From positions 37,400,333 through 37,464,332 of the forward strand of contig OX419756.1 of assembly GCA_948567375.1 (NCBI GenBank): DNA of 64,000 bases, written 5' to 3'. The notes under the pieces are model-generated. The model made no database searches. It saw only the letters and a program-made list of their open reading frames with translations, and was not told the DNA's origin. The stretch is from Lunularia cruciata. Its lineage: Eukaryota; Streptophyta; Marchantiopsida; Lunulariales; Lunulariaceae. Of this stretch, positions 1,602 to 57,265 are shown in pieces (positions within the stretch are counted from its first letter, which is position 1; every line of letters starts with the position of its first letter). The translations under genes were made by a program, and so were the position numbers.

Positions 1602-1989
1602 TATGTGGTACCCAAATTTTTGTTTTTTTTCTTATTTCTAAAGAAGAAGTGTACAAAAAAAGTCGAATGGCACCTATATGGCAATTGAAGGCAAAGAAAA
1701 GTGTCCTTGGGATGTAACCTGAGGTAAATTGACTTTGTGTCAAAAGGCAAGGTACTTGGAATTGCCATGGCAACATGTAACCCAAAGTTAGGAGACTTCA
1801 TCTTAGGGGTGCCAACCCAAGGCGAGGACAATATTATAACTTTCCTTTGGGGCGAGACGTTCAAGAAGGTACCATTCACAAAAATGGCGGTCATACACAG
1901 GAGAGACACTTGACATTGACAAGAGCATGCAGGAGGTGTGATTTCTTGGTAGAAACTCAAAGTGAAGAAAGATGGAGGAGGCACGTCAC

Positions 1990-1996
1990 TATAAAA
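1990..1996 (+). promoter_or_regulatory. TATA box of the GL-1 internal ORF
   Basis: TATAAAA starting 27 nt before the ATG at 2017. The same box at the same 27-nt distance recurs in GL-5, GL-8, GL-12 and GL-14, and as GATAAAA in GL-10. Conservation of both motif and spacing supports a real promoter. The very short leader it implies is odd. Confidence 0.6.
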
Positions 1997-2016
1997 TTCA
2001 GGCTAAAGACAAAGCA

Positions 2017-2340
2017 ATGACAAGTTATTTTCCATTGCCATTAAGAAGTCGCCTTGCAGGAGATCATGGAAAGGGATGTATAGTCCCAAATGTGCTTGTG
2101 TGTCACGAGGAAGTCGAGAGAGTTAATCCAGGAATCAATAGGGAGAATAGTCCCCAACCCAAAGTGGAAGAGAGAAACATGGGAGGTGGGAAGAAGAACT
2201 ATGAATTTGTAGTGAGAAATCATTTGGAGGTAAGTGTGATTGTGAGAATTGAGGTACTGAGCAGGCTTTGGATCACATTCTTGGCATGGAACTTGAATGT
2301 TAGTTTTATAGGTTTCATGACTAAGACCATCAAAGAGTAA
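2017..2340 (+). pseudogene. GL-1 LTR-borne ORF, N-terminal part
   Basis: First third of the conserved domain of the GL protein. It starts MTSYFPLPLRSRLAGD, equivalent to MSSNFPLPLRSHLAGD in other copies, and holds the MGGGKKN and RIEVLSRLWITFLAWN segments typical of the family. TAA at 2338-2340 ends the frame. About 50 bp later the gene is split by the GL-2 insertion, and its homology resumes exactly at 6125. I do not recognise the protein in any named family. A capsid/gag-like role is possible but unproven. Confidence 0.65.
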
Positions 2341-2983
2341 GTGTCTCGATGGCTCTGAAGAAGAAGTGAAGAGAGGAAATCTGGCTTGATGGATAGCGGT
2401 GGTACCCACATTTTTTTTGTTTTTCTATGGTTAGTAGTGTTTAAGAGACGAAGTAAGCACTAAAAGTTGAATTTTGGACAAAGAATGGACGGAAGTTACT
2501 TCAAAGGAAATCCAAAGAAGATGACATCGGATCCGATGATGGAGGTACTCGGAAAAGGAGTACGTCGGAAAGAGTCCAAAGATCACCGTCTTCGGGTTGG
2601 AAGACATAGGAAAGACAAAGACCGTTTAACAACCTCTATATGTGGCAAGAAAGTACATTTCAAGAAACAGCGAGGGCAGAAGAAGCATGTCTTGATAGTG
2701 ACCAAGAGTGCATGCAAAAGAGAGAAATTCACAAACAAAATCGACTGAAGAATGACTATGATTCAATAAAATTGCAATATAAAACATAAAATATAAAATT
2801 GCAACTGCACAGGGGGAAGTTGAATACTCTGAGTAAATTTCCAATTCCTTTGAGTAGTTGTTTGCAGTAATGCGTGTTTGGAAGCCCATCAAGAGTGAGA
2901 TTTTCTTGAACTCTAAGGGACTTAGAGTGTCTCGTCCAAGAGAGGGTCTTATTTTCCAACATCGTAGAAAGAGAGAACAAATC

Positions 2984-5318
2984 ATGGCAAAGAAGGTGGC
3001 CAACGCACTGGCGGTGAGAGGTTTTGCAATTTGAAGGGTAGATGTAGTGGCTAGAATTGAAGTCTTGATTAGACTTTGTATTATGTTTTTAGCATGGAAT
3101 TGGAATTTCAGTTTCTTGGGAGTGATGGTAGAGATTGCTGCTAGTAATTGTGAGGAGGGTCCCAAGGTGGAAGGGAAGAGAGGCAATCCGGCTCAATGGA
3201 CTGAGTCGGATTGGAAGTTGGTATTGGGAAGAGAAGCAAGAGAACCAAGAGGGATCACCTTCTATCGGAAGTGTGATGCTGCAGAGGAGACAGCGGAAAT
3301 CCAAAATTTGTTCTTTGCTCCGAGAACCACAAATGGCTACAAGGTGGAGTCCTATCGGGACCCAATTCAAAGAAGTATTGTGGGGGCGATGATGGCCATG
3401 TTCAAGCTAGAACAAACTACCTACGTGAACATGCAGCAGGCTGTCTTCTTCCATCAAATGTTTGCAGGAGTTCCAGTTAATTGGGCAAAGTGCTTTCATC
3501 ACCAAACAAGGCAGATGGTGGTGAATTGGAAAATGGGCTTGCCACCACATTATTTTGCACCGTTTGCAGCCCACTTCTACTTTGGGCTGAACTTACTATC
3601 CAAAGATGAGCGTCATCGTATGGTGTCACACATGCATCCCGATTTGTGAGGAGAAGCAGACGATGAGGAGCGCCAGTATATGCGGCATCTTTGAGCAAAT
3701 GATGAGTACTTCGCAAGGATGGGACAGTGGAAAGTTGAAGAAATTACCAGTCCAAAGGCAAAGAAACGTGGCAAACCCGAAGAAGCCAAGTCGCTTCCCA
3801 TGCAAAGAAAGACTCGGTGGCTTGTGTTGAAGATGGCAAAGATCATAAAAGAGGCATCATCGGGATTGGAGTCTCGCAAGGAGATTGAGTCGCAAGAAGA
3901 GGACTCGGAAGAAGAGGAGCTCACATTGAAAAGTGAGGAGTCGTGGAGCGAAAGTGATGGAGAACCAAAGGTCCAGCAATCGGCAACAGTGAGTGAGGCT
4001 TGTCAAATGATGGTATTAAATAAGTCAAGAGTAGAAGAGGAAGCAGAGAATCCCGCGGGGCCGAGTTCAAGAGGCCAAGACAAAGAAAGTGCGGACACGA
4101 TGAAGATACAAAGATCGCGACTCCGGATGAAGCAGCCAATGACAAAGGAGAAGAATCCAAACAAAGAGGGCAATGACAAGGAAGAGCACTTCAGCGGGAT
4201 ATCCTACATGACAAAGGTGGTAACCCCATTGCTGGAATTGCTGAAGGAGCATCAAAGAGTAATTCCCCAAGATCGCAATAAGGGGATGAACAAATTGCAG
4301 ATGATGAAGTATCAGGTGAGTGAAGTGAAGGAGCTGTAGGAACAACAAGTCCAAAGAAATGCGGAAGTGGAAGAACTTTGGAGGGAGGAATGCTTGGTGA
4401 AGAAAACGCTAACCCTACTACAAGGAAGCTGCGCAAAAAAGGAGAAGGAATTGCAAAGGCAAGCTGGAGAATTGAAGGAACAAACAATGTGGCTCAATAA
4501 GATGAAGGAAAATGTGAGTGATGTGCGCATCGAGAATGTTCATTTGAAGGCAATGAACATCGTAATGGAGTAGGAGTTGGATAGCTTGAAAAATAGTGCA
4601 GCAGCGAAGGGTCAAGCATGGCAGGGAGTAAGCAGCCAGGCAAGAGGAAGAAGAACGATTACAAGAGCTAGTTAGAAGTGCTGAGTTACAGAGTACACAG
4701 TATGCAGAGGAGAAGAAAATGCTTGCTGCGGAGTACGAAGACAAGCTGAAGATGTATCGTGAAGAACTGAAGGTAGAGCACTCTTGAGGATATGAGTCGA
4801 AATCAGTAGGAGAAATTGCGGGGAAGCTGAGAGCCATCTTAAGCACGGAGGCTGAAGGGAGATTGGAGGAAGCCTGCCTACACAAGTTGAAGTTGCTTGT
4901 GCAGGAAACTTGGAAGAGAAAAGCCAAAGATGTGGATATGAACACGTTGCTGATTCGCTTGAGAGAGCGTGTAGATAGGAAAATGTTAGATGTAGAGAAC
5001 AATGTTAGTCTTAGACTGGATTTAGTCAATTCAGAATTACAGAAGATTTGGAATAGTGTGATAGTGGAGAAGAGACTCGATGTTGCAGAAGTAGGAATAC
5101 AAGTATCATCGGACTTGAGGATTGACACATTAGAGAAGAGTGGGTCAGGAGATAAGAGTGTAGATGGATTACCCATGAGCTCAATTGTAGATTGTTGTGT
5201 AGAAGTAGTAGAAGTAGTCAAGGACTTGGCGGAATTTGCCATACCCGACGAAGGAGAAGTAGTAGGAAGATCATTGTGTTTGGAAGCCGATGATGAGGTA
5301 GATATCGGATCGAGATAA
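2984..5318 (+). pseudogene. GL-2 LTR-borne ORF (B-type coiled-coil protein)
   Basis: Frame from ATG 2984 (MAKKVANALAVRGFAI) through the conserved domain (AVFFHQMFAG, PHYFAPFAAHFYFGL, RMVSHMHPDL), a Lys/Glu/Ser-rich linker, and Glu/Lys/Leu heptad-like coiled-coil sequence. Stops at 3035 (TGA, where A copies have Trp), 3647 (TGA), 4337 (TAG) and 4571 (TAG) are all in one frame. A frameshift follows before the last open stretch 4863-5318, which ends DEVDIGSR and then TAA. About 780 codons originally. Unknown function; non-functional here. Confidence 0.65.
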
Positions 5319-5437
5319 GTGTTGATTTTGAGATAGGAAGAGGCAGATATGAAGAGATAGATTGTCACTTGGGATTTGAAGGTAGGAAGAGATGTTAGGA
5401 AGCAGTGCTAGGTAGGCAAGTCTGCCGTTTGCTTCAG

Positions 5438-5446
5438 TATTTAAAG
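5438..5446 (+). promoter_or_regulatory. TATTTAAAG box of GL-2
   Basis: TATTTAAAG just past the ORF end and 674 nt before the LTR end. The same box sits at a near-constant distance from the end in GL-1, GL-6, GL-7, GL-9 and GL-10. It is the best candidate for the U3 promoter that would start the retroelement RNA, which would make R plus U5 about 640 nt. Confidence 0.5.
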
Positions 5447-6124
5447 TGAAGCATTTGTAGTACGATGTTATTCAGTATTCATATTTTTGAAGATAGATAA
5501 AGTGAAGTGTTGTTCTTAGTGCTCGTCGTTTATGCTTAATTCCAATTGTCAATATCATGTTTATGTTTGTGAGTGTGTGGAGAATTCCAAAGAGCAAGTT
5601 AGTGTGTTTGTGGATGTTGGAATCTACAGCCTTGATCTTCATTCTGTGTGTTTGATCCTGAGTGAAGTGCATCGGAGCAATGCCTTGACAGGTCTAAGAG
5701 GAATTGTAGTGTTGTTAGTATTCTGCATTTGTGAGTGCAGCACAAAGTTGATGTGAAGCAATTTAGATCGAGGAAGTTGTGCCTTTAGTGGAGGGGTGGA
5801 ACACAATTCTGAGGCAAAATCAGTCTTTGTAGTGAAGTGCCATCTTCGGGAGAATCTGAATCATCACAATCAAGAGTTGTTTGGACAGAATTTGCTATGC
5901 TATGATTATGTGTGTGTGTATTTGTGACAAGTTGTCAAGAATGTGAGCTTGTTACTCTCTTCTAGGTGTAGTTTCTACCTGAGAGATTAAGGAAGCCATC
6001 AAGAAGAACTGCAATTGTGACTTTTGACTTTGTATTTGACCAATTCTGGATAGTATCTCTGCGGGAACGAACTTTACTGACCTGATTACCGCAAAAGTGA
6101 TATTTGCCAGGTTGTCACAATAGC

Positions 6125-7871
6125 GTCGGATTGGAGATTAGTACTTGGGAGAGAAGCAGGCACAAAGCATGGTACCATGTTCTTGGGGAAGGGAGAAGTA
6201 GCTAAAGAAACCCAAGAAGTGAGAGACGCTTTCTCTTTGAAGCACACAAAGAATGGCTAACAAAGTGGAGAGCTATAAGGATCCTGTCAAGAGGGGGATT
6301 GTGAGTGCCCTAATGGCAATCTTGAAGACAGAGAGAACGACTTATGTGATGAAGCACCAAGAGGTGTCCTTCCATAAGATGTTTGCAAGAGAGCCAATTA
6401 ATTGGGCTAAGTGTCTTCATTAGAGGACAAGATAGATGGTGTGGAATTTGCAAGACAAGTTGCCACCACATTACATTGTGCCATTTGCAGACCACTTTTA
6501 TTTGGGGCTGAACTTGCTCAATGTGGCAGAGAGACACAAGATGGTGTCCCATTTCCACCCTGACTTGCGAAGAAATGTTGATACGGAGGAGCAGCAGTAC
6601 ATCTTGCAAATCAAGAGTAGCGATGGGTACTACAAGCAAGCAGGGCAGAGTTTGCAATTAAAGGAGAGTACTCTGAAGTTGAAGAAGAGGAGTTGACATG
6701 GAGAAGAAGAAGAAGTAGAGAAAGCACAACTTGGGAAAGCTAGAAAGGTGAACTTGAGGAGAGAACTGGTGGTAATTGCATCGTTAGACAAAGAGTCGGA
6801 AGGGGAGGCTGAGTGCAAGTCTGAAGACTGGGAGAAGGAGGAAGAACTTAAGTTCACACTTCAGAGTGGGGACACAAGTAGTGCCAATGATGATGGAATA
6901 GAGATGTAGTCAGTATCCAAAGAGGAGGAAGCCAATATGGAGACGGAGGAGAAAGGTAACTTGAAATTGGAAGACGAAGTGCTAGAGTAGGAAGAAAAGA
7001 GAGTTACAATTCAGAGAAAGTCTGTTCCAGACGTAGGGCAAAGCATGAAGTAGGGTCGAGTAATGTAAGAGAAGTGGAGTGTGGAAGTGCAAGGAGCAAA
7101 GCATCCATTCCTATAAGGCAATTGTGGCTAAGAAGGCAAGTGTCAAGTGAAGAAGAGGCAAAGAAGAAGATAAGTCCGCAAGCCAAGGTAACTCCAAGTG
7201 AAGGAGTCAAGTATTTGAGGGAGATTGTGTGCCCGTTGTTAGTGAAGTTAGAGCACAAGAAGAAGGACATGCAATTGAAGTGTCCAAAGGTGAAGATTGT
7301 ATTGCAAGTATTAGCTCAACTGGAAGAAGAGAACTTGGAATTGAAGAAGAATATAGCCCGGGGTGAGGAAGAAAGAGAAGTGCTACGAGTAGATGCCATA
7401 TTGCATAATCAAGTAATTGAGAACTTGAAGAGAGAAGTGGGGAGTAGAGAGAAAACCATAGAGCAGAATGACATAGCAAGGGAAAGACAAGTAGCTGAGT
7501 ATGAAATTTTGAAACAATAGTTTGTTGATTCGAGATAAGAGATTACCCAAGCTATGGCAAGGGTAGTAGACAAGGAGCAAGAGCTCAATAGAGTGATGGA
7601 GAGTGTAGAAGAGAAGAAGCAGCTTTGGCAAAGAGAGTTGAAAATGAGATATAGGGAGGAAGAGAGATTAAGAGAGTTACTTTGCAATCTAGAGGAGAAG
7701 ATTGTGCAAAAGGAGAAGGAGAAGGAGACAATGAAAGCCGAGTTTGAAGCAGAATTGGCAATGTATAGAGAAGATTGGCTTGCAGATCTAGAACGGGAGA
7801 GAGAGATGAGGTTGGAGCCATTGAAGGAGATAGTAGTAAAGATGAATGTGATGCTAAGTACAAAGGCCAAT
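6125..7871 (+). pseudogene. GL-1 LTR-borne ORF, central part
   Basis: Continuation of the GL-1 protein after GL-2. It covers the rest of the conserved domain (YVMKHQ, EPINWAKC, PPHYIVPFADHFYLGLNLL, MVSHFHPDLRR, EEQQYILQI), then the acidic/basic linker, an Arg/Lys-rich basic patch, and the coiled coil (open stretches 6436-6696, 7074-7520 and 7554-7871). An extra A near 6259 breaks a GYKVESY motif into a stop and shifts the frame; several further stops follow. Split again by GL-3 at 7872. Unknown function. Confidence 0.65.
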
Positions 7872-9735
7872 TGTGACAACCCGGCAAATATCGCTTTTGT
7901 GGTAATCGGGTAAATAAAGTTTGTTCCCGCAAAGATACGATTCAGAATTGGTCAAATACAAAGTCAAATAGAAACATGTAGCTCTTCTTGGTTGTGTCTT
8001 TAGTCTCTCAGGTAGAAACTACACCTAGAAGAGAGTAAAAAGCTTACAATCTTGACAACTCATCATGAATACATACACACATAATCACAACATAGCAAAT
8101 TCTGTCCAAACAAATCTTGATTGTGATGATTCAGATTCTCCCAAATACGGCACTTCACTGCAAAGAACGACTTTGCCTTAGAATTGTGTTCTACTCCTCC
8201 ACTGAAGGCACAACTTCCTCGATCAAAATTGCCTTACATCAACTTTGTGTTGCACTCACAAATGCAAAATACCACCAACACTACAATTCCTCTCAGATCT
8301 GTTAAGGCATTGCTCCAATGTACTTCACTTAGGATCAAACACACAAAATGAAGATCAAGGCTGCAGAATCCAACATCCACAGACACACTGACTTGCACTT
8401 TGAAATTCTCTACACACTCACAAACACAGAATTGACTTCCTCTTTCATTTTTCTTAGCAACATTGCCTGCTCCTTCAATTCCTCAACTTGCTTCTGCAGT
8501 TCCTTCCCTCTTGACTCACAACTTTCTTGCAACATCTTGAAAGTCTTCTTCTTCAAGACTGCATCCATCCGAAGTTCTTCAATTTCCTCATTTCTTTGGA
8601 CTTCTCGCTCCTACAACCCCTTCACTTCACTCGGCAGATACTTCACCACCTGCAACTCATTTGTCACCTTTCTATGATCTTGGGGAATTACCCTCTATTG
8701 CTCCTTTAACAATTCCAACAATGGGATGACAACCTTTGTTAGATATTGTATCCCACCAAAGTTCTCTTGGTCTTTGTCCCCGTCTTTGTACCTCGCCTCT
8801 TCCATCGGCTCCTTTTGCCGAAATTGCAATCTTCGTATCTTTAGAGACACTACTTCTGAGCTTTCTTCTTCCTTACCAATTGAACTTGGCCCCGCAGGGT
8901 ACTCCTTCCATTTTTCTGGTCCCTTCTCTTCCACCACCAGGGCTACGCAATGATTTGTTGTTCCGAGTACTCTGTCAATCATCTCATGACAAGCTTTACT
9001 TACTCCAAGCACTTGCTGAACCTTAGGTACCCCCTCACTCTCACTTCTAGACTCCTCACTTTGTAAAGTGAGTTCATCTTCTTCTGATTTCTCTCCTTGC
9101 GACTCTATCTCCCCTTCAGACTCAGATTCCAATGATGCTTCTCTCACCATCTTCTTACTCTGCAGAACCAATCTTTGGGTCTTCCTTTGAATTGGAGGCG
9201 ACTTTGCTTCTTTGGGTTTACTACGCTTCTTCTTCTTTGGACTTGTGACTTCTTCCATCTTCCATATGTCCTAACATGCATTACTGCAGGATGACTACTC
9301 AGAGGAATTGGAAATTTACTTGACATATTCAACTTGTCCCTACGCAATCACAATTTTATATTACCCCAAATTGCAGTCATCCTTCAGTCAATTTCAAAGT
9401 CAACTTCCGCTCTTTTGTGTGTTGCTGTCCTGTCACTATCAAGACATGCTTCTTCTACCTCTTCCGTTTCTTGAAGTGTACTTTCTTGCCACGTACCAAG
9501 GTTGTTAGACGGTCTTTATATCACCTTTGCTTCTCGATCCAAAGACAATGCTCTTTGGACTTCTTCCATTGTACCCCTCTTTTGAGTACCTCTATCATCG
9601 GATCTGATCTTGACTTCTTCAGATTTCCTCCAAAGTCACTTCCGTCCATTCTTTCTTTTGCAATTCAGCTTTTTGTGTTTACTTCTTCCCTCAAATGCTA
9701 ATAAACAGAAAGAAACAAAAAATGTGGGCACCACA
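7872..9735 (-). mobile_element. GL-3: internally deleted giant LTR (B subfamily), nested in GL-1
   Basis: Reads TGTGGTGCCCACA to GGGTTGTCACA on the minus strand. The flanks CCAAT (7867-7871) and CCAAC (9736-9740) are a 5-bp duplication with one change. Host GL-1 sequence resumes exactly after it. At 1864 bp it is half the normal length. Two stretches are missing: the conserved N-terminal domain of the ORF, and everything from the late coiled coil through the TATTTAAAG box (junction near 8430). The 5' end closely matches GL-2. Confidence 0.82.
8431..9326 (-). pseudogene. GL-3 LTR-borne ORF, internally deleted
   Basis: Minus-strand frame beginning MSSKFPIPLSSHPAV at ATG 9326. After about 15 codons it jumps straight to the Lys-rich linker (EEVTSPKKKKRSKPKE), skipping the conserved globular domain. 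It then follows a Ser/Glu-rich acidic region and the VVIPLLELLKEQ helix that opens the coiled coil. The longest open stretch is 8695-9258 (187 codons). It runs into U5 sequence at about 8430, so it has no natural C-terminus. Confidence 0.6.
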
Positions 9736-9740
9736 CCAAC

Positions 9741-10140
9741 GTATGAATTGAAGAGACAAGGCTACACAAGTTGAAGTTGTTGGTATAGGTGATGTGGAGG
9801 AGAATTGCAAAGGATAAAGACTCAAATGCTTTACTTATTAGTCTCAAAACTCATTTAGATAGGAAGATATTGGAAGTGGAAGACAATAACTCAATTTGAT
9901 AAGACTTAGTGAAATTATAAATAGATAAACTTTGGAAGGATGTAAGAGCAAAGCCCGAAGTAGATGACATAGGAGTACAAATATCTTCAGAGTTACCATT
10001 GGAGATATTAGAGAAGAGTAGGTCGGGAGATAAGGAGTTAGATAGATTACCTGCAAGCGGAATTGTAGATTTGGAAGAAGTAGTAGAATTGGTAGAGGAA
10101 TTAGGAGTTATGAAACCCAAGACAGAGTAGTAGTGAGTGA
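9741..10140 (+). pseudogene. GL-1 LTR-borne ORF, C-terminal part
   Basis: Last piece of the GL-1 protein, resuming right after the GL-3 target duplication. It contains the segment that in other copies reads LHELKLLVQETRR, the DRKILEVEDN helix, and an acidic tail with ILEKSRSGDKELDRLP. Several stops are present (for example near 9787 and 9898). It stops about 175 bp before the TATTTAAAG box. Confidence 0.55.
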
Positions 10141-10314
10141 GGTTACCTCGGGATTGGGATTGAAAGGCAAGGAAGAAGTAGACATTGGATTGGAGTAGTA
10201 ACAATCTGAGATCTAAAGAGGTAGATATGAAGAGGTGCATTGTCATTTTGGATCTGTAGGTTAAAAGAGTTGTTAGGAGAGAGTATAGTTGTTAGTTACT
10301 GTCATTTGCTTCAC

Positions 10315-10323
10315 TATTTAAAG
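10315..10323 (+). promoter_or_regulatory. TATTTAAAG box of GL-1
   Basis: TATTTAAAG 687 nt before the GL-1 end, at the conserved position between the ORF end and the R/U5-like tail. Candidate core promoter of the retrotransposon transcript. Confidence 0.5.
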
Positions 10324-11009
10324 GTGGCATTTGCAGTCATATGTTATTAAGTGCTCATTATTCCTGAGAATAGATAAAGCAAAGTGTTGTGAAGCAATGC
10401 TTGTCATTTGAGCTTAATTTCGAGTGTTAACTTTGTGTGTGTTTGTGAGTGTGTGGAGAAATTCAATCAGTATGTTTGTTGGATGCAAATTGCAAATCAG
10501 TGTGTTTGTTGGATGTTGGATTCCATAACCTTGATCTTCATTCTATGTGTTTGATCCTAATTGAAGTGCAATCAAAGCAATACCTTGACAGATCGGAGAG
10601 GAATTGTAGTGTTGGTAGTAGTTTGCATTTGTGAGTGCAGTGCAGAGTTGATATGAAGCAATTTTGATCAAGGAAGTTGTGCCTTCAGTGGAGGGGTGGA
10701 ACACAATTCTGAGTCAAAGTCATCTTTAGTGAAGTGCCATTTTTGGGAGAGCCTGAATCATCACAATCAAGATTGTTTGGAAAGATTTGATGGAGTTGTG
10801 ATTAAGGAGTGTTAATTCGTGACAAGACTGCAAATCAATGCTTGTTACTCTCTTCTGGGTGTGGTTTCTACCTGAGAGACTAAAGATGCAACCAAGAAGA
10901 ACTAAATTTTTACATTGCTTCATATTTGACCAATTCTAAATTGTATCTTTGCAGGAACAAACTTTACTTACTTGATTACCGCAAAAGTGATATTTGCCGG
11001 GTTGTCACA

Positions 11010-11334
11010 ATTTGATCCTAAGTGAAGTGCAATTGGAGCAATGCCTTGATAGATCTGAGAGGAATTGTAGTGTTGGTAGTATTTTGCATTTGTGAGTGTA
11101 TTGTAGGGTTGATGCAAAGCAATTTGGATCAAGGAAGTTGTACCTTCAGTGGAAGGGTAGAACACAATTCTGAGGCAAAGGTGCTTTGTAGTGAAGTAGT
11201 CATCTTTGGAAGGATCTGAATCATCAAAATCAAAACTTTTTTAGACAAAAGTTGATGGAGTTATGATCAATGAGTGTTAATTTGTGACATGACAACGAGT
11301 CAGTGCTTGTTACTCTCCTTTTGGTGTGGTTTCT
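11010..11334 (+). mobile_element. GL-4: fragment of an older giant LTR (R/U5 region)
   Basis: About 325 bp matching the GL tail, from the segment after GTGTATTTG to GTGTGGTTTCT, cut on the left by the G1 insertion (GL-1 end) and on the right by GL-5. The natural next bases in other copies, ACCTGAGAGA, are absent from the right side of GL-5, so the rest of this copy was lost or rearranged. Confidence 0.75.
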
Positions 11335-11720
11335 TGTGGTGCCCACATTTTTTGTTTTTTTCAAAATAAAGGAGAAGAAGTGTATAGAGAAGTCGGATTG
11401 CGCCTGTATGGCCAAAGAAGGCGAAGAAAATTGGCTTTGGGATGAAACCCAAAGTAAAGTGCCTTCGGGTCATAAGGCGAAGTACTCGAAAATGCCCTGT
11501 CAGCATACAATACGAAGTAAATTGTCTTTGGATCGGGGGGAGCTCAACCCAAGGCAAAGACAGTCTAACAACCTTTCATCGGGGCAAGAAATTCAAGAAG
11601 GAGCCATTTCAAAACTAGCGGCTCATACGCGCGAAGGTTGATTGATAGTGACAGGTGCATGCCGGAGGTGTGATTTCTCGGTAGAAACTTGAAGCGACGG
11701 AAGATGAAGAAGTGCAACTC

Positions 11721-11729
11721 TATAAAAAT
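11721..11729 (+). promoter_or_regulatory. TATA box of the GL-5 ORF
   Basis: TATAAAAAT starting 27 nt before ATG 11748, the fixed spacing of the family. A start site at the usual 25-35 bp would fall at or next to this ATG, so translation may instead use the next ATG (11886, MGGAKKN). Confidence 0.6.
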
Positions 11730-11747
11730 TGAAACTGCAACGACAAA

Positions 11748-13467
11748 ATGTCGAGCAATTTTCCTTTGCCATTGAGGAGTCATCTTGCAGGTGATCGGGG
11801 AAAGGGAAATAAAGTTGTACTTGGGTTAGTGCGCAAGGGAGAAGTCACGAGAGAGAAATCGAGAGACAATAAGAAAGCATAAGAGATGGGAGGAGCAAAG
11901 AAAAACTCTGAATTCATAGTGAGAAATCATGCAATTTGGAGATTAGATGTAGTAGCAAGGATCGAAGTCTTGAGCCAACTTCGGATCACCTTTTTGGCAT
12001 GGAACTGGAACGTAAGTTTTCTAGGATTCATGACAGAAATCATCGAGGGTAAGTGTCTCGATGGTCCCAAGGAAGAAGGGAAGAGAGGAAATCCGGCTCG
12101 CTAGACAGAGTCGGATTGGAGACTCGTACTCGGGAAGGAGGTGGGTTTGGAGCAGGGAGCCACGTTCTTGGGGAAAGGAGAGATAGCCCAAGAAACACAA
12201 GAGGTGAGAGATGCCTTCTCGTCGAAGAGAACGAAGAATGGGTACAAAGTTGAGAGCTACAAAGACCCTATGAAGAGAGGAATTGTGAGTGCACTAATGG
12301 CCATCCTGAAGCCGGAGAGAACCACTTATGTGATGAAACACCAAGCGGTGTTCTTTCACAAGCTATTTGCAGGAGAACCAATCAATTGGGCAAGGTGTTT
12401 TCACGAGAGAACAAGGCAGATGGTGTGGAATCTGTGGGATAAGTTGCCTCCACACTACATCGTACCATTTGCAGCACATTTCTACCTTGGGTTGAATTTG
12501 CTCAATTTGGCGGAGCGCAATAGAATGGTGTCTCATTTCCATCCTGACTTGAGAAGAGAAGTCAACGTGGAGGAGCAGCAATACATTCTCCAAATCCGGA
12601 GCACGGATGACTACTACGCAAAGACAAGGAAAAACGTGGAGGTCGTGGTAAGTACTCCGACGAAGAAGAGAACTCGGCACACAGAAGCCAAAGAAAACAA
12701 GAAACCTCGTAAGATGCAGAAAAATAACCCGAGGCGAGGGATGGTGGTGATTGAGTCAGAAGATGAAGACTCAGAAGGCAAAGCCAAGCTCAAGACGGAG
12801 CACTCGGAATGTGAGGAGGAACTTGAGCTGACACTGCAGAGCGGAGATACTAGCAGTGACAGTGAAGACGGTGGAGAAATGACCTCGGCACCAGCGGCTG
12901 AAGAATACAAAGAAGAAGTGCAAGCAGAAGTAGAAGCCGAAGACAATGCGGCGCTAGAAGACAAAGTACCGGTGCTCAAGGAGAAGAAGATCACAGTACA
13001 GCGAGGAGTTCGCTCGAGACGTAAGGTGAAGTGTGAGGTGGGGCCGAGTAAAGTGAAGGAAGAGGCAAAAGACAGCACGAGTAGTGAGGCATCAATTCCG
13101 ATACGAAGACTTCAGCGAAGAAGGCGCTTATCAGGAGAACATGAGGAGAAACAAGAAATTACTCCGTGGGAGGAAGAAGTTGCCAGTGAGGGAGTAGAGT
13201 ACCTGCAAGAGGTAGTATGCCCGCTGTTGGTGAAGTTGGAGAAAAAGAAGAAGGAGATGCAGTCGACTTGTCCAGAAGTAAAGACTGTATTGCAGGTGGT
13301 AGCAAGATTAGAAGATGAGAACTCAGAGTTGAAGAGGAGTATAACTTGAGGTGAGACAGAGAGAGAAGTACTGCGAGCAGAAGCATTAGAGAGAAGTCAG
13401 GTAATTGAAGACCTGAAGAGAGAAGTGAGCTATCAAGAGGATCTTGCAAGGAAGAGTGGCAGTCGCA
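11748..13467 (+). pseudogene. GL-5 LTR-borne ORF, best-preserved N-terminal two thirds
   Basis: One frame from MSSNFPLPLRSHLAGD to the deletion junction, interrupted only by TAA near 11880, TAG at 12102-12104 (Trp in other copies) and TGA at 13347-13349 (an Arg CGA elsewhere). Order: short N-terminal arm; conserved domain to about codon 280 (WRLDVVARIEVLSQL, MKHQAVFFHKLFAGEPINWA, PPHYIVPFAAHFYLGL); acidic Ser/Glu linker; basic patch RRLQRRRRL; then a coiled coil (LVKLEKKKKEMQ). The 402-codon open stretch 12141-13349 is the longest in the family here. The protein matches no family I can name with confidence. The basic patch would suit nuclear entry or nucleic-acid binding (inference). Confidence 0.7.
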
Positions 13468-14124
13468 GGAAATTGTTGTTCAATGCTCATTATTTCTGAG
13501 AATAGATAAAGCAAAGTGCTATGAAGCAGTGCTCGTCGCTTGAGCTTGATTTCGAGTATCAACTTTGCAATTGTGTTTGGGAGTGTTTGGAGAAATTCAA
13601 AGTGCAAGTCAGAGTGCTTGTTGGATGTTGGATTCCGTAGCCTTGATCTTCATTTTGTGTGTTTGATCCTGAGTGAAGTGCAATTGAAGCAATGCCTTGA
13701 CAGATCTGAGAGGAATTGTAGTGTTGGTAGTATTCTGCATTTGTGAGTGTAGTGTGAAGTTGATGTGAAGCAATTTTGATTGAGGAAGTTGTGCCTTCAA
13801 TGGAGGGGTGGAACACGGTTCTGAGGCAAAGTCGTTTTGCAGTGAAGTGCCATTTTCGGGAGAGCTTGAATCATCACAATCAAGATTGTTTGGAAAGAAT
13901 TGAAGGATTTGTGATTATGGAGTGTTAATTTGTGACAAGACTGCGAGTCAGTGCTTGTTACTCTCTTCTGGGTGTGGTTTCTACCTGAGAGATTAAAGAT
14001 GCAACCAAGAAGAACTACATTGTTACTGTTTGCTTCGTATTTGGACATTTCTGACTCGTATCTTTACGGGAACAAACTTTACTTACCCGATTACTGCAAA
14101 AGTGATATTTTCCGGGTTGTCACA

Positions 14125-39896: not shown

Positions 39897-40266
39897 AGTG
39901 GTAGTTTCAGTTATGGGAGTTCAAAATCTCATGACTTTCCAAGTCTTGAAGGATTCAAGCTATGACTTACTTCTTGGGAGGCCATGGTTGAGAGCAGCAC
40001 GCACAACTGATCGATGGCACAAAGGGTACTTGAGGATTGGGCCATCAAACCATAGAGTCACAGTTTCTATGACTAACACTATCAACACTTCACATTCAGA
40101 TACACCATCTTCTGATTATTGGGAATCAAATTCTGAAGAAGGAGCTTCAGGTGTGGACACACAAGCATGGAAGAGGAGACTTCCACGGAGGAGGATGAAT
40201 CTGAATCTGATTCAGATGTGTATCCTTTGTGTGCTCTGGATTTTGCACCTAAGCCAAAGGTTTTGA
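39886..40266 (+). pseudogene. G3-1 protease C-terminal part, frameshifted
   Basis: Carries the second half of the aspartic protease: VVSVMGVQNLMTFQVL then YDLLLGRPWL, the strand that normally ends 'ILGRPWL'. It is out of frame with gag by one position and the frame is lost again before RT begins at about 40167. Whether the first shift was once a programmed one cannot be judged from one copy. Confidence 0.75.
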
Positions 40267-41858: not shown

Positions 41859-43086
41859 CTATCCAGAAGGGATGCATGCTAGGGAGAGGAAGGCCCTTGC
41901 AGCAAGATCTAGACCTTACACAATGGTGGAGGATATTCTTTTTCACCAAGGAGCAGATGGTCTACTTCGAAGAGCAGTGGGTAAGGAAGAGTCTATCCTA
42001 CCCATAAAGGAGTTTCATGAAGGTTTAGTATATGGAGGACACTTTGCAGGAAAGGTGACTGCTTTCAAGATTCTAGATGCAGGTTACCATTGGAGAGGGA
42101 TTTTCAAGGATTGTCTTGATTATTGCAAAACTTGTCATGTTTGTCAAGCTTTTGCTAGAAAGTCTACATCCACTCCACCACTTAGATCAATTCTATCGAT
42201 AGGACCTTTTGAGAAGTGGGGAATTGATTTTGTAGGTCTTCTCAATAGAACCCCAAAGAACAATCGGTACATTGTGGTAGTTACTGATTACCTTACCAAG
42301 TGGGTTGAGGCTAGACCATTGAGGGACAAGAATGAAGATGAAGTGGGTAGATTTCTTTATGAACGCATTATCACTAGGTTTGGATGCCCTTTGGAGTTGG
42401 TTTCTGATAGAGGAGGAGAGTTTACAGGAAGCATTACTACAACCTATAAGCATTTATCTATCACATATAGAGTTACTACATCCTATAAGCCAAATTCCAA
42501 TGGCTTGGCAGAGAGAACCAATCAGACCTTGTGCATGATGTTGGCCAAAGATGCAGAAATGGAGGGGGCTAAACATCATTGGGACAAGAGGATTCATGCA
42601 GTTTTGTGGGAGTATATGACAACCATGAAGACTTCCACCGGATATTCTTCATTTCAATTGGTGTATGGTATTGAGTCTACCTTACCTATTCACTTTGATC
42701 TTCCTACCTTCCAAAGCATTCATAGGAGACTGAAGAAAGCACAAGGAGGTGATGCATAGAAGTCAAGGAAGGATCAACTCATGGAGTTATAAGAGGCAAG
42801 AGCAGTTGCTATGGTTTGAGTGGAGCAAGCCCAAAGGAAACAAAAGGAGAGCTATGACAAGAGGCAAGGCAAGAAGAAGGTGGAGCCTTTCAAAGAAGGT
42901 GATTGGGTAATGTTATTTGATTCCATTCGATTCAAGAGAGTGCAAAAGAAGTTTTTGCCTAAGTACTTTGGACCTTTCATAGTAGAGAAGGTGTGGGGCA
43001 ATTATACCTATGATCTCAAGGAGTTAGGAGGAAGACACTTTGATAGGATTAACCATGATAAGTTGAAGATGTACCATAAAAGGTAG
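41833..43086 (+). pseudogene. G3-1 integrase
   Basis: HHCC zinc finger (EFHEGLVYGGHF then CKTCHVC), then a complete DDE core: GIDFVGL, SDRGGEF and NGLAERTN all intact. The frame stops at TAG 42757, but the same frame reopens from about 42820 with the C-terminal DNA-binding part (KEGDWVMLFD, KYFGPFIVEKVWGNY, the GPY/F-like module). It starts in a different frame from RNase H (shift near 41850). No chromodomain is visible. Confidence 0.88.
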
Positions 43087-43087
43087 A

Positions 43088-44940: not shown

Positions 44941-45736
44941 TGTGACAACCCGGCAAATATCAATTATGCGGTAATCAAGTAAGTAAAGTTTGTTCCCGTA
45001 GAGATACGAGTCAGAAATTTTCAAATTCAAAGTCAAACAGTAACAATATAGTTCTTCTTGGTTGCATCTTTAATCTCTTAGGTAAAAACCACACCCAGAA
45101 GAGAGTAACAAGCACTGATTCGCAGTCTTGTCACAAATTAACATTCCTTAATCACAACTCCATCAAATCTTTCCAAACAATCTTGATTGTGATGATTCAG
45201 GCTCTCCCAAAAATGGCACTTCACTGCAAAATGACTTCACCTCAGAATTGTGTTCCACCCTTCCACTGAAGGCACAAATTCCTTGATCAAAATTGCTTCA
45301 CATCAACTTTGCATTGCACTTACAAATGCAAAATACTACCAACACTACAATTCCTCTCAGATCTGTCAAGGCATTGTTTCAATTGCACTCCACTCAAGAT
45401 CAAACACACAAAATGAAGATCAAGGCTGCAGAATCCAACATCCACAGACACACTGACTTGCACTTCAAAATTCTCCACACACTCACAAACAAAAACACAA
45501 AGTTGATACTTAGAATCAAGCTTAAGCGACGAGCACTACTTCATAGCACTTTGCTTTATCTTTTCTCAGAAATTATGAGCACTGAACAACATCTAACTGC
45601 AAATGCTACTCTTAAATAGTGAAGCAATCGACAATTATCTTCCTAATGCACTTCTTCCTAACAACTTTACAAACATGCAGATCTGAAATGACAATGCACC
45701 TCTTCATAGCTGCCTATTCAAATCTCCCATCGGTTA

Positions 45737-48302
45737 CTAATCTGATCCAATGTCTACTTCTTCTTCAGCTTTCAAACCCAAACCCAAAGTAATTTTACTT
45801 CCTAATATTCTGTCCTCGGGTTTCACATCTCCTACATCTACCAGATCTAGCAATTCTTTTTCTTGATCTGAAATTCCACTAGTGGGTAATCTATCTAACT
45901 CTTTATCTCCCGACCCACTCTTCTCTAATGTCTCCACTGGTAACTCCGAAGACATTTGCACTCCTACTTCATCAACTTTGGGTTTGGCTCTAACGTCTTT
46001 CTGAAGTTTGTTTATCTCTAATTTCACTAAGTTTAGTCTAATTGCAATATTATCTTCTACCTCTAGTATTTTGCTATCTACACGAGTCCTAAGACTAATC
46101 AACAGCGCATTCAAATCTGTGTCCTTTGATTGTCTCCTCCTTGTCTCCTGCACCAACAACTTCAACTCGTGCAGCCTCATCTCTTCAATCCAAATGTTGG
46201 CCTCTGTACTTAACATCGCGTTCATTTAGAGGATAATCTCCTTCAATGGCTCCAATCTCATCTTCCTTTCACACTCCCAATCTGCAAGCCAATCCTCTCT
46301 ATACATCGCCAATTCCACTTCGAACTCACTGTTTCTTTCTCCTTCTCCTTCTGCTCAATCTTCTCCTCTTGATTACAAAGTAACTCTTGTAATCTCTCTT
46401 CTTCCTCATATCATAATGCCAACTCCCTTTGCCAAAGTTGCTTCTTCTCTTCTACACTCTCCATCACTCTATCAAGCTCTTGTTCCTTCGTTGCTATCCT
46501 TGCCATAGCATGGATAAGTTCTAATCTTGAATCAACAAACTGTTGCTTCAAGATTTCATACTTTGCTACTTCTCTTTCCCTTGCTATGTCACTCTTCTTA
46601 ACAAGTTTCTCTTGATACATCAATTCTCTCTTCAAGTCTTCAATTACTTGACCCTGCACTACTGCCTCCCCTTGCAGTACTTCTCTTTCTTCCTCACCTT
46701 GGGTTATAATCTTCTTCAACCCCGAGTTCTCTTCTTCTAATCTCGATAACACCTGCAAGACAATCTTCACTTCTGGACATGTCGACTGCATCTCCTTCTT
46801 CATGTGCTCCAATTTCACCAACAATGGACACACAATCTCCCACAGGTACTCCACTCCATTGCTCGCAACTACTTCCTCCTGCATAGCAATCTCCTTCCTT
46901 ACTTCTTATTCACCCAATACTCGCCTTTTTCTCTGCAGTCTTTGTATTAGAATTGACGCCTCACTCCCTGAGCTTTCATTCACTTCTTCCTTTGCCTTAC
47001 TCGGACCCACTTCACACTTTGCCTTGCGTCTTGAACAAACTCCTCTCCAGATCGCAGACTTCTTCTCCTCGGCCTCAGGTATCTTGTCCTCCAACTTCTC
47101 ATTATCTTCTGGCTCAAGCTCCACCCAAACTTCTTCTTCTTCTACCGCAGCGGCTGGTACCGACATCATCTCTCCACCTTCATCATTGTCGCTACTCGTA
47201 TCTTCACTTTGCAGCGTAGCTCCAGTTCTTCCTTGCATTCCGAGTCTTTGGACTTGCACTTGGCTTTGCCTTCTGAGTCTTTGTCTTCTGACGCGATCAC
47301 CACCATGCCTCTCCTCGGATTTCCTCTCCTAGTCTTCCGAGGTCTTGTCTTGTCTTCGGCTTCTCCCTGCCAACTCTGCTTCTTCAACTTCAGAGTACTT
47401 GCTTCTATCTCTATGCTCTTCCCCATCTTCGCGTAGTACTCATCCGTGCTCCGGATTTGAAGAATGTACTATTGCTCTTCTACATCGAATTCTCTTCTCA
47501 AGTCGGGATGGAAGTGAGACACCATTTGATTTTGCTCCGCCAAGTTGAGCAAATTCAACCCAAGGTAAAAGTGTGCTGCAAACTGCACGATGTAATGTGG
47601 AGGCGGCTTAACTCGCAAATTCCACACCATTTGTCTCATTCTTCCATGGAAGCACCTTGGCCAATTGATTGGTTCTCCTGCAAACAGCTCATGGAAGAAC
47701 ACCGCTTGGTGTTTCATCACATAAGTCATTCTCTCCGGCTTCAAGATCACCATGAGAGCACTCACAATCTCTCTCTTCACATGATCCTTGTAACTCTCAA
47801 CCTTATACCCATTCTTTGTTCTCTTTGAAGAGAAAGCATCTTTCACTTCTTGAGTCTCTTTTGCTACTTCTCCCTTACCCAAGAATATGGCACCTTGCTC
47901 CGCGCCTGCTTCTCTCTTGAGCACTAATCTCCAATCCAACTCTGTCCAGCAAGCCGGATTTCCTCTCTTCTCCTCTTCCTCAGGGCCGTCAAGACACTTG
48001 CTCTCGATTATCTTGGTCATGAAGCCTGGAAAACTGACATTCCAATTCCATGCCAACAAAGTAATCCAAAGTCGGCTCAAGACTTTGATTCTTGCGATCA
48101 CGTCTAGTCTCCGAATCACATGATTCCTCACTGTGAATTTGGAGTTCTTTTTTCCTCCTCCCATCTCTCATGCTTTCTCAATGTCTCTCGGTTTCACTCT
48201 CTGGACTTCTCCACTACACACTAGCGTGTCTTCAACTCTTTTTCCCTTCCCACGATCACTTGCAGGACGACTTCTCAACGGCAAAGGAAATTTGCTCGAC
48301 AT
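45737..48302 (-). pseudogene. GL-12 LTR-borne ORF, near full length
   Basis: ATG 48302 to the stop after EEVDIGSD. The 231-codon stretch 47469-48164 holds the conserved domain (MGGGKKNSKF, MKHQAVFFHELFAGEPINWP, HYIVQFAAHFYLGL, MVSHFHPDLRRE). It ends in a TAG where other copies have Gln (EEQ-Q-YILQI). Linker, basic patch (RLQRKRRVLGE), coiled coil (46411-46884) and tail (45737-46225, LEKSGSGDKELDRLP) follow in order with a few shifts. Same architecture as GL-8. Confidence 0.7.
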
Positions 48303-48320
48303 TGCTTTGTCATGAGCCTG

Positions 48321-48329
48321 ATTTTTATA
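48321..48329 (-). promoter_or_regulatory. TATA box of the GL-12 ORF
   Basis: TATAAAAAT on the minus strand, 27 nt before ATG 48302. Confidence 0.6.
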
Positions 48330-48889
48330 GAGTCGCACTTTCTTTGTCTCTCTTTGATTCGAGTTTCTACCAAGAAATCACACCTCTTGCATGCGCCTGT
48401 CATTGTCAATCGTACTTCACGCGTATGGACTGCCGGTTTTGAACGGTCCCTTCTTGAATTTCTCACCTTGACGAAAGGTTGTTAGACTGTCTTTGCCTTG
48501 GGTTGAGCTTCCCTTGATATGAAGATTCCTTACTTTGGGTTGTATGCTGACAGGGCATTTCCGAGTACTTTGCCTTATGACCCAAAGTCACTTTACTTTG
48601 GGTTTTATCCCAAAGACTCTTTTCTTTGCCTTCTTTGGCCATACAGGAGCAATCCGACTTCTCTATACACTTCTTCTTCTTTATTTTGAAAAAAAACAAA
48701 AAAATGTGGGCACCACATAAGTCATACATGAACTCTAAAGTGCCACAAGCACCCTCTAACTCTAGATAGCCATCTACTCCAAGTATGTGATATCCCTATG
48801 GTGGGCAAAGATCAAGAGGTTGGGTGCTATTGGGGCCCATCATTAGTTGCATGTCTATGATCTATAAAACATAAAGGTGAACTTGCTAT

Positions 48890-55420: not shown

Positions 55421-55987
55421 AATGCTCTAAAGTCAAAGCAGTCCACACAAACATTATGCACAAATAGAAAACAAAGAATGGAGGGATTCCAATCACAAGA
55501 AGTCTATAAAAAATCCTCCATCTCATAAATTAAAATCAGATTGAACCTGCTACCATTTGGCATTTTATATAATAGGAGTGGCTACCTGCTTCCTAAGCTA
55601 CCAAGATCAGCAAGAATGGGATCAAATTACCTTTCCTAGCCAAAGCTACATGTGTATAGGTATTCGTGGAATAATTGCTAGGATAACAAGTGAAGGTGGA
55701 CTAGGCTAGAAGGGTGGGCAGATTTTGCCAGACAATGATCTACAAATCTAACGTGACTCCTCTACCAAATTTGATGTACTCCAAATTTGACAAACCCTCT
55801 CCAAATCTGGCCAAGCTTCATCCAACTTGAGCCAAATCTAGGGCAACCAAATGAGGCTTTCTTCATGCCAATTCTCCACATCTGGTGAACACTCTCCAAA
55901 TCAAGCCAAGCTTCACCCAACCCAAGCCAAATCTAGGGTAGTTTGGATGATCTCCAAATCTAGGCAACCTCCACCAAATATGTCACA
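55421..55987 (-). repeat. Probable G2b 5' LTR and primer-binding site
   Basis: On the minus strand TGACTTTAGAGCATTGG (rc of 55421-55437) resembles an initiator-Met primer site (TGGTATCAGAGC) with several changes. Upstream of it in element terms lie about 550 bp with a TATATAAAATGCC box (near 55560-55575), two 45-bp direct repeats 92 bp apart (CCAAGCTTCA... AGCCAAATCTAGGG, 55810 and 55902), and a start TGTGACATATTTGG at 55987. No second copy is available to confirm the LTR. Confidence 0.4.
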
Positions 55988-56365
55988 AATCTGCATTGGA
56001 ATCAGTAGGAGAAGTTGCATGGAAGTTGAGAGCAATCTTAAGCACGAAAGCTGAAGGGAGATTGGAAGAAGCCCGTCTACATGAGTTGAAGTTACTTGTG
56101 CAGAACACTCGGAAGAGAAAAGCCAAAGATGTGGATATGAACACATTGCTGATCCGATTGAGGGAGCGTGTAGACCGGAAGATGTTAGAAGTAGAAGACA
56201 ATGCTAGTCTCAAATTAGATTTAGTCAAATCGGAGTTAGAGAAAATTAGGAAAAGTGTGATAGCGGAGAGGAAGTCCGATGTTGCAGAAGTAGGAATTCA
56301 GGTGTCATCGGACTTGTTATTTGACACATTAGAAGATGTCATAGGAATTCAGGTGTCATCGGACT
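55988..56365 (+). mobile_element. GL-13: B-type giant-LTR fragment with coiled-coil ORF piece
   Basis: Plus strand, closely matching GL-2 at 4798-5125: ESVGEVAWKLRAILSTKAEG, RKMLEVEDNASLKLDLVKSE, AEVGIQVSSDL. The ORF is open for 135 codons. A 23-bp word (GGAATTCAGGTGTCATCGGACTT) occurs twice, 43 bp apart, the second copy exactly at the junction with GL-14. Confidence 0.7.
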
Positions 56366-56852
56366 TCGTCCGCTTTGACAAGAATGCATCTCTCACCTCT
56401 TGAGTTTCTTGAGCTATCTCTCGCTTCCCCAAGAACGTGGCCTCTTGCTCCGAGCCTGCTTCCTTCTCGAGTATGAGTCTCCAATCCGACTCTGTCCAGC
56501 AAGCCGGATTTCCTCTCTTCCCTTCTTCCTTGGGTCCATCAAGACACTTGCTCTTGATGGTTTCTGTCATGAAACTTGGAAAGCTCACATTCCAGTTCCA
56601 TGCCAAGAAAGTGATCCAAAGTCGGCTCAAGACTTCAATCCTAGCAATCACATCTAACCTCCAAATCGCATGATTTCTCACTGCAAATTCAGAGTTCTTC
56701 TTTCCTCCTCCCATCTCTTCTGCCTTCTCACTATCTCTTGATTTCACTCTTGCGACTTCTCCCTTACACATTGATGCGATTCCAACTCTATTTCCCTTCC
56801 CATAATCACTTGCAAGATGACTTCTCAACGGTGAAGGAAAATTACTTGACAT
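56366..56852 (-). pseudogene. GL-14 LTR-borne ORF, N-terminal fragment
   Basis: The N-terminal 160 codons have no stop or frameshift: MGGGKKNSEFAVRN, WRLDVIARIEVLSRLW, NPACWTESDWRLILEKE, and on to EVRDAFLSKRTK. This is the most intact N-terminus of the family and confirms that the MSSNF arm is read in the same frame as the conserved domain. It is truncated at the GL-13 junction. Confidence 0.7.
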
Positions 56853-57265
56853 TTTGCCATTGTGAGTTCAATTTTTATAGAGTTGCACTTTCTTTGTCTT
56901 TCTTCACTTCAAGTTTCTATCAAGAAATCACACCTCTTGCATGCACCTGTCACTGTCAATCAGCCTTTGCGCGTATGGGCCGCCGGTTTTTGAACGGTCC
57001 CTTCTTGAATTTCTCGCCCCGACGAAAGGTTGTTAGACTGTCCTCGCCTTGGGTTGAGCTCCCCCAATACGAAGACACTTTACTTCGGGTTGTATGCTGA
57101 CAGGGCATTTCCGAGTACTTTGCCTTATGACCCAAAGTCACTTTACTTTGGGTTTCATCCCAAAGACTCTTTTCTTTGCCTTCTTCGGCCATACAGGCGC
57201 AATCCGACTTCTCTATACACTTCTTCTTCTTTATTTTGAAAAAAACAGAAAATGTGGGCACCACA
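56366..57265 (-). mobile_element. GL-14: 5' end of a giant LTR (A subfamily)
   Basis: First 900 bp of a GL LTR: TGTGGTGCCCACA at 57265, TATAAAAAT at 56871-56879, ATG 27 nt later at 56852, and an uninterrupted N-terminal ORF (MSSNFPSPLRSHLASD to about 160 codons). It is fused head-to-head with GL-13, so the remainder was lost. Right flank GAATC; no partner. Confidence 0.8.

Follow-up and report, generated by a model that had tools for sequence, protein, structure and literature searches.

Can the long terminal repeat (LTR) of a plant retrotransposon carry a complete protein gene of its own? This question is raised by a stretch of 64,000 nucleotides from the liverwort Lunularia cruciata, here called the window (positions 37400333-37464332 of contig OX419756.1, or C2), in which a unit of about 3.76 kb beginning with TGTGGTRCCC and containing a long reading frame occurs many times. 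A reading of the sequence alone had proposed that the unit is one LTR of a gypsy retrotransposon, that it encodes a coiled-coil protein of ~850 codons, and that this gene is duplicated in both LTRs and survives as a solo-LTR gene family in a largely undescribed type of plant element. Here, we follow up these proposals in the window, in its neighborhood, and in the whole genome (566 Mb, 74 contigs). The unit is the LTR of a Ty3/gypsy element, and transposing lineages of this element kept a gene in their LTRs.

The repeated unit as the LTR of a Ty3/gypsy element

The unit was linked to a retrotransposon through copy A, at the left end of the window, which is a 3′ LTR (1604-11009, plus strand) divided into three pieces (1604-2396, 6122-7869, and 9735-11009) by the nested units B and C. 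As the sequence-only reading had noticed, A begins at 1604, directly after a gypsy integrase and the polypurine tract (PPT) GAGGGAGGGGGTA (1591-1603, plus strand). The pol gene in front of it (1-1499, plus strand) is the 3′ part of the same element; it is broken by stops and frameshifts and comprises RNase H (1-231), integrase (639-1199), and the C-terminal part of the integrase (1203-1499). Pfam places RT_RNaseH above the cut-off (3e-8) and rve, on 639-833, below it (0.0017); 834-1199 has no Pfam integrase match, yet it matches the integrase pieces of the five other pols counted below at 70-86%. The 20 kb upstream of the window contain a 5′-truncated LTR of the same family (L001:2405-3506) that ends 8.0 kb before the start of A. 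It is followed by a sequence resembling a primer binding site (PBS), TTTTGGTGCTGTTGCCGGGGA, and then by gag, protease, reverse transcriptase (RT), RNase H, integrase, and the PPT, in that order. In this element gag (PF03732, 7e-6) and RNase H (1e-19) score above the Pfam cut-off, and protease (7e-4) and RT (3e-5) below it. The order gag-protease-RT-RNase H-integrase was found in several copies with Pfam, where some short pieces fall below the cut-off, and tblastn. The PBS-like sequence begins within ~7 bp of the LTR end, and the gag matches of two elements begin ~875-895 bp after the LTR.

A survey of 284 kb around the window, extended by 10 kb, yielded six integrase matches of at least 70% identity, two weaker ones (55-62% and 25% identity) being left out. 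In five of these six pols a unit begins 107-110 bp downstream, and the sixth has no adjacent unit. The complete element E4, 82 kb beyond the window end, has LTRs of 3,813 and 3,791 bp that are 93% identical by BLAST, the 3′ LTR having the 5′ LTR as its best match and the next regional unit reaching 88%; the target site duplication (TSD) GTGGA flanks it on both sides. Four further LTR pairs were fetched. P1 (96.2% identical) has the TSD GGTGG and P4 (94.9%) the TSD TGTAC, while in P3 (97.6%) the CTCCA that precedes the 5′ LTR recurs 2 nt beyond the usual end of the 3′ LTR; P2 was excluded from the pair statistics, as a divergent unit breaks up its 3′ LTR. The pairs of E4, P1, P3, and P4 are direct LTRs with TG..CA ends, and a PBS after the 5′ LTR and a PPT before the 3′ LTR were found. 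E1 is probably an older pair belonging to one element: its LTRs are 86% identical over 1,856 bp and are best matches by identity only, longer matches of 79-81% scoring higher.

The same arrangement is found throughout the genome. With up to two mismatches, the junction of the LTR end with the PBS start occurs at 2,023 sites and that of the PPT with the LTR start at 1,791 sites, against 2 and 1 for the respective reversed-pattern controls. Among the exact sites listed for contig C1 up to 62.25 Mb, 27 of 100 LTR-PBS sites can be paired with a PPT-LTR site on the same strand, in the right order, and within 15 kb. Fifteen of these 27 pairs have a spacing of 6,100-6,200 bp, sharply at ~6.17 kb; the wrong-order and opposite-strand controls gave 3 pairs each. 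A 601-base query spanning integrase, PPT, and LTR start returned 4,258 candidates, and all 40 that were scored, the window itself included, match it from no later than base 11 to at least base 593 (a 41st match was partial). The full elements with matching TSDs bear out the proposal that the unit is one LTR and not a small element with two LTRs. They also remove the objection, raised in advance, that no pair of units might enclose a pol and that A might have been inserted behind the PPT by chance.

Within the window, the start motif TGTGGTRCCC occurs at 13 sites and the end motif GGGTTGTCACA at 10 when one mismatch is allowed. Both counts exceed those of all 100 shuffles (mean 3.65 and maximum 8 for the start, mean 1.16 and maximum 5 for the end). 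Genome-wide, the exact start motif has 9,567 sites, against 1,816 for the pattern read backwards. Self-BLAST of the window gave ~16 units or pieces, which makes the original figure of about 14 a fair count. Four of them are uninterrupted long units (B, G, I, and K), A is a fifth long copy, and the rest, besides the short copy C and the internally deleted copy D, are fragments. The sequence-only reading had noted four copies with 5-bp target duplications; in the window, TSDs are perfect in B (ATAGC), G (ATCAT), and K (TAAGT), and four of five bases agree in C (CCAAT/CCAAC). The reported empty site was recovered as well, the point in unit I that corresponds to the B insertion being uninterrupted. 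Ten single LTRs were examined for TSDs; seven have a perfect 5-bp TSD, C has 4/5 bases, and I and D have none. TSDs around single LTRs are expected of solo LTRs left by LTR-LTR recombination.

A selected reading frame within the LTR and its copies

The LTR gene lies wholly within the LTR, at approximately positions 550-2990. In the best open copy, an LTR of 3,783 bp, the gene starts with an ATG at position 555 and ends with a stop at 2988-2990, encoding 811 amino acids. The frame is present in both LTRs of E4, P1, P3, and P4, as the proposed duplication of the gene implies, and is broken in most of them. Two ATG codons could serve as its start: the first, at ~412-417, is present in 11 of 12 copies compared, and the second, which opens the reading MGGGKK at ~550, in all 12. 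The ratio of nonsynonymous to synonymous substitution rates (dN/dS) is 0.57 between the first and the second ATG (0.66 and 0.72 in the other frames) and 0.11 downstream of MGGGKK (0.87 and 1.36). Since the upstream stretch is close to the other-frame values and constraint sets in sharply at MGGGKK, the second ATG is taken as the gene start. A non-coding control just upstream of the gene gave 0.36-0.91 depending on the frame, which indicates the noise of dN/dS on such short stretches. The selected LTR gene of the sequence-only reading therefore stands, but its length is reduced to ~810 codons, as ~855 is reached only when the unconstrained upstream ATG is counted.

The dN/dS values are NG86 estimates, and codons with stops were removed before every count. 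For the N-terminal domain of units G, K, M, D, and I (ten pairs), dN/dS is 0.09-0.17 in frame versus 0.55-3.1 in the other frames, in agreement with the common frame architecture described for the long copies. A comparison of 14 LTRs gave 0.13-0.30 for all pairs (one not computable) other than three close ones, namely the E4 LTRs and the E1 LTRs (0.48 and 0.52) and E2_3-M (0.55). The three LTR pairs of the P series gave 0.39, 0.46, and 0.62, and comparisons between those elements gave 0.12-0.27. The integrase of the same elements has a dN/dS of 0.18-0.50, so the LTR gene was kept about as strictly as an enzyme of the element. Between subfamilies the frame does not evolve neutrally, and the suspicion that it had been neutral from the start of every subfamily is not sustained. 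In LTR pairs, transitions exceed transversions several-fold (172 vs 31 in E4), a pattern to be expected where methylated DNA deaminates. When neutral evolution was simulated under a transition bias of 4-12, dN/dS came to 0.38-0.91 (central 95%), compared with 0.69-1.48 without bias, and to 0.38-0.96 (full range) at higher divergence. All five same-element pairs (0.39-0.62) fall within this neutral range, which indicates that copies drift after insertion. Selection acted on the transposing element lineages and is not detectable on resident LTRs.

The state of the copies was examined with two queries. The 414-codon query gave 25,562 first-look candidates, and 18 of the 101 scored, including the window's own, have no stop. 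The 685-codon query gave 30,112, with no stop in 6 of the 65 scored, including the query locus; in two of these six the frame extends over 824 and 862 codons. First-look counts are of unscored candidates, among which a single copy may appear more than once. A frame open over 811 codons is found in one LTR of a dated pair, and none of the long copies within the window is intact. C-to-T changes such as CGA to TGA often account for the broken state in the one stretch that was compared. With neutral LTR pairs (0.39-0.62) and a stop in 83 of 101 scored copies, the idea that the gene survives as a solo-LTR gene family finds no support.

The gene is flanked by two TATA boxes. Of 22 LTRs, 19 have TATA-1 (TATAAAA) at LTR positions 379-395, ~165 bp upstream of the gene ATG, and 17 have TATA-2 (TATTTAA) just past the gene stop, at a distance of 676-694 bp from the LTR end; a shuffled LTR would be expected to have 0.02 and 0.05 such boxes, respectively. 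In A, TATA-1 (1990-1996, plus strand) stands upstream of the gene start (2179-2396, plus strand; ATG at 2179-2181, MGGGKK...), the remainder of the gene lying beyond nested B. In K, TATA-1 is found at 48323-48329 (minus strand, LTR position 389) and TATA-2 at 45612-45618 (minus strand), after the gene and 678 bp before the LTR end. The last ~550 bp of the LTR are the stretch best conserved between subfamilies.

The LTR protein consists of an N-terminal domain, a linker whose basic part is followed by a strongly acidic one, and a long coiled coil. In the L026 piece, the heptad score of the coiled coil (residues 441-685) was reached by none of 200 shuffles, and the N-terminal part and the last 176 residues are indistinguishable from shuffles. 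Some subfamilies have proteins only 32-43% identical to the query, with their parts in identical order. The highest 19-residue hydropathy of the L026 pieces is 1.38, making a membrane segment, and hence an Env role, unlikely. An env-like reading of the gene was dropped on this ground and for lack of ORF (open reading frame) room between integrase and LTR; instead of the env-like ORF found between pol and the 3′ LTR in Athila/Calypso elements, only 107-110 bp separate the integrase match from the LTR in five of six pols. Pfam scans of LTR-protein pieces returned nothing above the cut-off, even at E up to 10, and PDB sequences gave no match to the one piece compared. Among 5.8 billion proteins, none matched the pieces at E ≤ 0.001, though a relative could have escaped, as one search reached only proteins of ~228-725 residues and the other scored only the 8,000 candidates that shared the most words with the query. 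The integrase of another gypsy element in the window, used as a control, found 259 proteins in this database; among the 120 matches listed, the best is from Riccia sorocarpa, with Marchantia, Riccia fluitans, Calypogeia, and Adiantum lower, so that land-plant proteins, including those of liverworts, are in the database searched. Membership in the superantigen family received no Pfam, PDB, or protein-database match for the pieces searched. An AlphaFold model of the N-terminal domain, built with seven window sequences, had a mean pLDDT of 38.6 and is unusable.

The remaining copies in the window are arranged as follows. Solo LTR B, of a divergent subfamily (2398-6119, plus strand), lies inside A and has a broken gene at ~2981-5312. 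Solo LTR G (17464-21220, minus strand), LTR I (26453-30216, plus strand), and solo LTR K (44941-48717, minus strand) carry broken genes at 20668 down to 18248, 27002-29417, and 48164 down to 45740, respectively. LTR D (11335-14124, plus strand) has an internal deletion, and its gene, from the ATG at 11886, is open for 414 codons (12105-13346). An LTR 5′ fragment (56364-57265, minus strand) contains TATA-1 and the first ~115 gene codons. Solo LTR C (7872-9735, minus strand), also inside A, measures 1.86 kb owing to an internal deletion, yet it keeps both ends and a near-perfect TSD, and is thus an example of a shortened LTR that has lost most of the gene. The pieces at 30436-31174, 31175-31898, and 11011-11334 hold only the 3′ ~740 bp of the LTR or an inner 324 bp; two of them adjoin head to tail with nothing in between. 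Recombination may have produced these pieces, or they may represent a short-LTR derivative that lacks the gene. Near WLAD in the coiled coil, toward its end, three of four fetched copies with long open frames (L024, L025, and L027) have a stop at the same codon and the fourth (L026) two codons on. A recoding site was considered here and rejected, as other copies have CGA or CAA at the codon that reads TGA here, for which deamination is the simpler explanation; the clustered stop would reflect either a common subfamily mutation or repeated deamination.

Other repeats are also present. A second gypsy family occupies 36765-42759 (plus strand) and 57690-61382 (minus strand), with a gag frame open for 546 codons (38256-39896) and an integrase open for 308 codons (41833-42759). 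Among the matches listed for this integrase, liverwort proteins come first, the best being from Riccia sorocarpa at 56% identity. Further copies of the family occur nearby, at least two of them inside elements with the LTR gene (E1 and E4). Tandem arrays of ~80-bp units, with higher-order periods up to ~423 bp, lie at 24205-25746, and a possibly similar recurring reading (KLLCHFPK...) is present upstream of the window, at C2 ~37389130-37390920 (L002/L001), beside another LTR.

Proposed mechanism and competing explanations

The observations comprise an LTR of ~3.76 kb, ~6.17 kb between LTRs, a PBS, a PPT, a 5-bp TSD, a selected frame of ~810 codons, and two TATA boxes. We consider it very likely that they represent a Ty3/gypsy family whose LTRs hold an additional, complete protein gene in their U3 region. 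In the mechanism that we propose, TATA-1 (~388) would drive the LTR gene, with transcription starting ~30 bp downstream, near position 418, so that the first ATG would be narrowly missed and the constrained ATG would follow after ~130 nt. TATA-2 (~3,100) would drive the genomic RNA from a short R-U5. The genomic RNA would then contain the gene once, after pol and the PPT, at the place of the env-like ORF of other elements. Reverse transcription would copy U3 to both ends, providing each new insertion with two promoter-bearing copies of the gene, one of which a solo LTR would retain until it decays.

Several points weigh against this explanation. Promoters, transcripts, translation, start sites, and the U3 label are all read from the DNA. 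I and the two E1 LTRs have no exact TATA-1, no TATA-2 was recognized in 5 of 22 LTRs (two of these, from E1, were compared as incomplete LTRs), and the 22 LTRs include LTR pairs and hence are not independent. Units I and D have no detectable TSD, and 83 of the 101 scored copies have a stop in the 414-codon stretch. The NG86 estimates are affected by saturation, with dS > 1 in many pairs, as well as by the strong transition bias, and the non-coding control is as low as 0.36 in one frame. As the searches yielded no homolog of the protein, nothing above chance in Pfam or PDB, and the model no usable fold, its function is proposed from its composition.

The strongest competitor holds that the genomic RNA starts at TATA-1, which would make the gene the first ORF of the genomic RNA and place it in R-U5 rather than U3. 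TATA-1 resembles a TATA box more closely than TATA-2, it occurs in 19 of 22 LTRs, and an ORF upstream of gag has been described elsewhere (Retrosat2 ORF0, PMC3485330). However, 17 of 22 LTRs have TATA-2 after the gene at a conserved 676-694 bp from the LTR end, leaving an ordinary short R-U5, and the best conserved part of the LTR between subfamilies is its last ~550 bp; we therefore judge a start at TATA-1 to be unlikely. A takeover by the host, with solo LTRs maintained as a domesticated gene family, would draw on the presence of promoter and gene together in solo LTRs and on some full-length open copies. The neutral dN/dS of the LTR pairs (0.39-0.62) and the broken state of all long copies in the window make it very improbable, with the proviso that a single domesticated copy among thousands would escape the copy comparison. 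Slightly weaker still is the idea of a fossil frame: an old env-like ORF or part of a gene would have been caught in the LTR and have drifted since, being open by chance or through recent amplification from one source. Stops in most scored copies and LTR pairs in the neutral range agree with it, but the between-element dN/dS is 0.12-0.30 at dS up to >1 and across subfamilies 32-43% identical to the query, the constraint is similar to that on the integrase and begins sharply at the ATG, and open copies exist. A reading of the unit as a small element in its own right, either a DNA transposon or a non-autonomous one, that lies behind a gypsy integrase by chance, as termini resembling imperfect inverted repeats (TGTGGTRCCC and TGTGACAACCC) and the many copies standing alone with a TSD might suggest, is already refuted by the paired LTRs with matching TSDs (E4, P1, P4), the constant 107-110-bp spacing from integrase to unit in five of six pols, the 1,791 PPT-LTR and 2,023 LTR-PBS junctions, and the 6.17-kb pairs.

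If the extra gene in U3 is accepted, the role of its product may be considered. Tentatively, and with somewhat less than even confidence, we suggest an oligomeric accessory of retrotransposition that would be nuclear and would act on chromatin or silencing or on the pre-integration complex; anti-silencing would be one form of such a role. A broader proposal, to which we incline on balance, is that this is the first plant element type in which the LTR is a full gene cassette with a promoter, a selected 811-amino-acid protein, and a second promoter for the genome. Such a cassette probably would have arisen when the PPT came to sit before an ORF in the env position, reverse transcription then duplicating the gene at each insertion. 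As part of the same proposal, the LTR gene, with 25,000-30,000 first-look candidates, may rank among the most numerous protein-coding sequences of the genome, and solo LTRs that are still open may supply the product in trans.

LTRs are usually treated as regulatory and non-coding, and a conserved gene wholly within the LTR of a very abundant plant gypsy family is significant for this reason. A solo LTR could be a promoter-bearing gene rather than a dead switch, and such genes would go unnoticed wherever annotation masks LTRs as non-coding. The family also provides a test case for the role of extra retrotransposon proteins.

Comparison with known systems

The genome of Lunularia cruciata has been described as enlarged through Ty3/Gypsy bursts (PMC9985172). 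In plant LTR retrotransposons, additional ORFs (aORFs) are reported between pol and the 3′ LTR (aORF-3S, env-like) or in antisense (Grande, RIRE2, and Retand), and the available text of the same source makes no mention of an ORF inside an LTR (PMC7264820). Like aORF-3S, the gene described here would be an additional ORF in sense orientation, downstream of pol on the genomic RNA, is kept in many copies, and has no assigned function. Unlike the aORFs, which are internal, located before the PPT, and present once per element, it follows the PPT and lies inside the LTR. Diaspora of soybean, of the Athila/Calypso/Diaspora lineage, has no env-like gene, an LTR of 2,524 bp, a tRNA-Asp PBS 5 bp after the LTR, and 873 bp from the LTR to the gag start (PMC1142308). 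By this description, the Lunularia element is similar in its long LTR, the spacing of its PBS-like sequence, its long leader, and the lack of an env-like gene; it differs in its lengthy extra ORF, as no other lengthy ORF is reported for Diaspora in the portion of that paper available. Rice Retrosat2 is likewise a gypsy element with LTRs above 3.2 kb and an extra ORF, but its ORF0 is upstream of gag-pol and is described apart from the LTR, whereas the ORF here is in both LTRs (PMC3485330). Cassandra, Helenus, and Ajax also carry a gene-like unit in their LTRs, although theirs are sequences resembling small-RNA genes in non-autonomous elements and not a protein gene (PMC10886601). In the available parts of PMC7319988, PMC12037069, PMC4016481, and PMC11117352, no LTR protein gene distinct from the element's own polyprotein is described. 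More generally, no protein gene inside a plant retrotransposon LTR was found in the literature searched, insofar as its text was available, which leaves out preprints and most subscription papers. The earlier description of the element type as largely undescribed holds to the extent of these searches and no further.

Of the known systems, the one closely parallel to the LTR gene is the sag gene of mouse mammary tumor virus (MMTV) and related mammalian proviruses; lentiviral nef and foamy-virus accessory genes also extend into U3. The majority of sag is located in U3, in LTRs that are otherwise called ordinarily non-coding; its promoters include one within U3, and old sag genes are found mostly in solo LTRs (PMC4667437). 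As with sag, a protein gene would be carried in U3, assigned here from TATA-2, and hence twice per provirus, which would constitute a second, independent case of a U3-placed gene beside MMTV sag. The two differ in that MMTV is a mammalian betaretrovirus with env and only most of sag lies in U3, and no sequence relation between them was found. The Lunularia element, in contrast, is a plant gypsy element with a frame of 811 codons wholly within the LTR and two TATA boxes flanking it.

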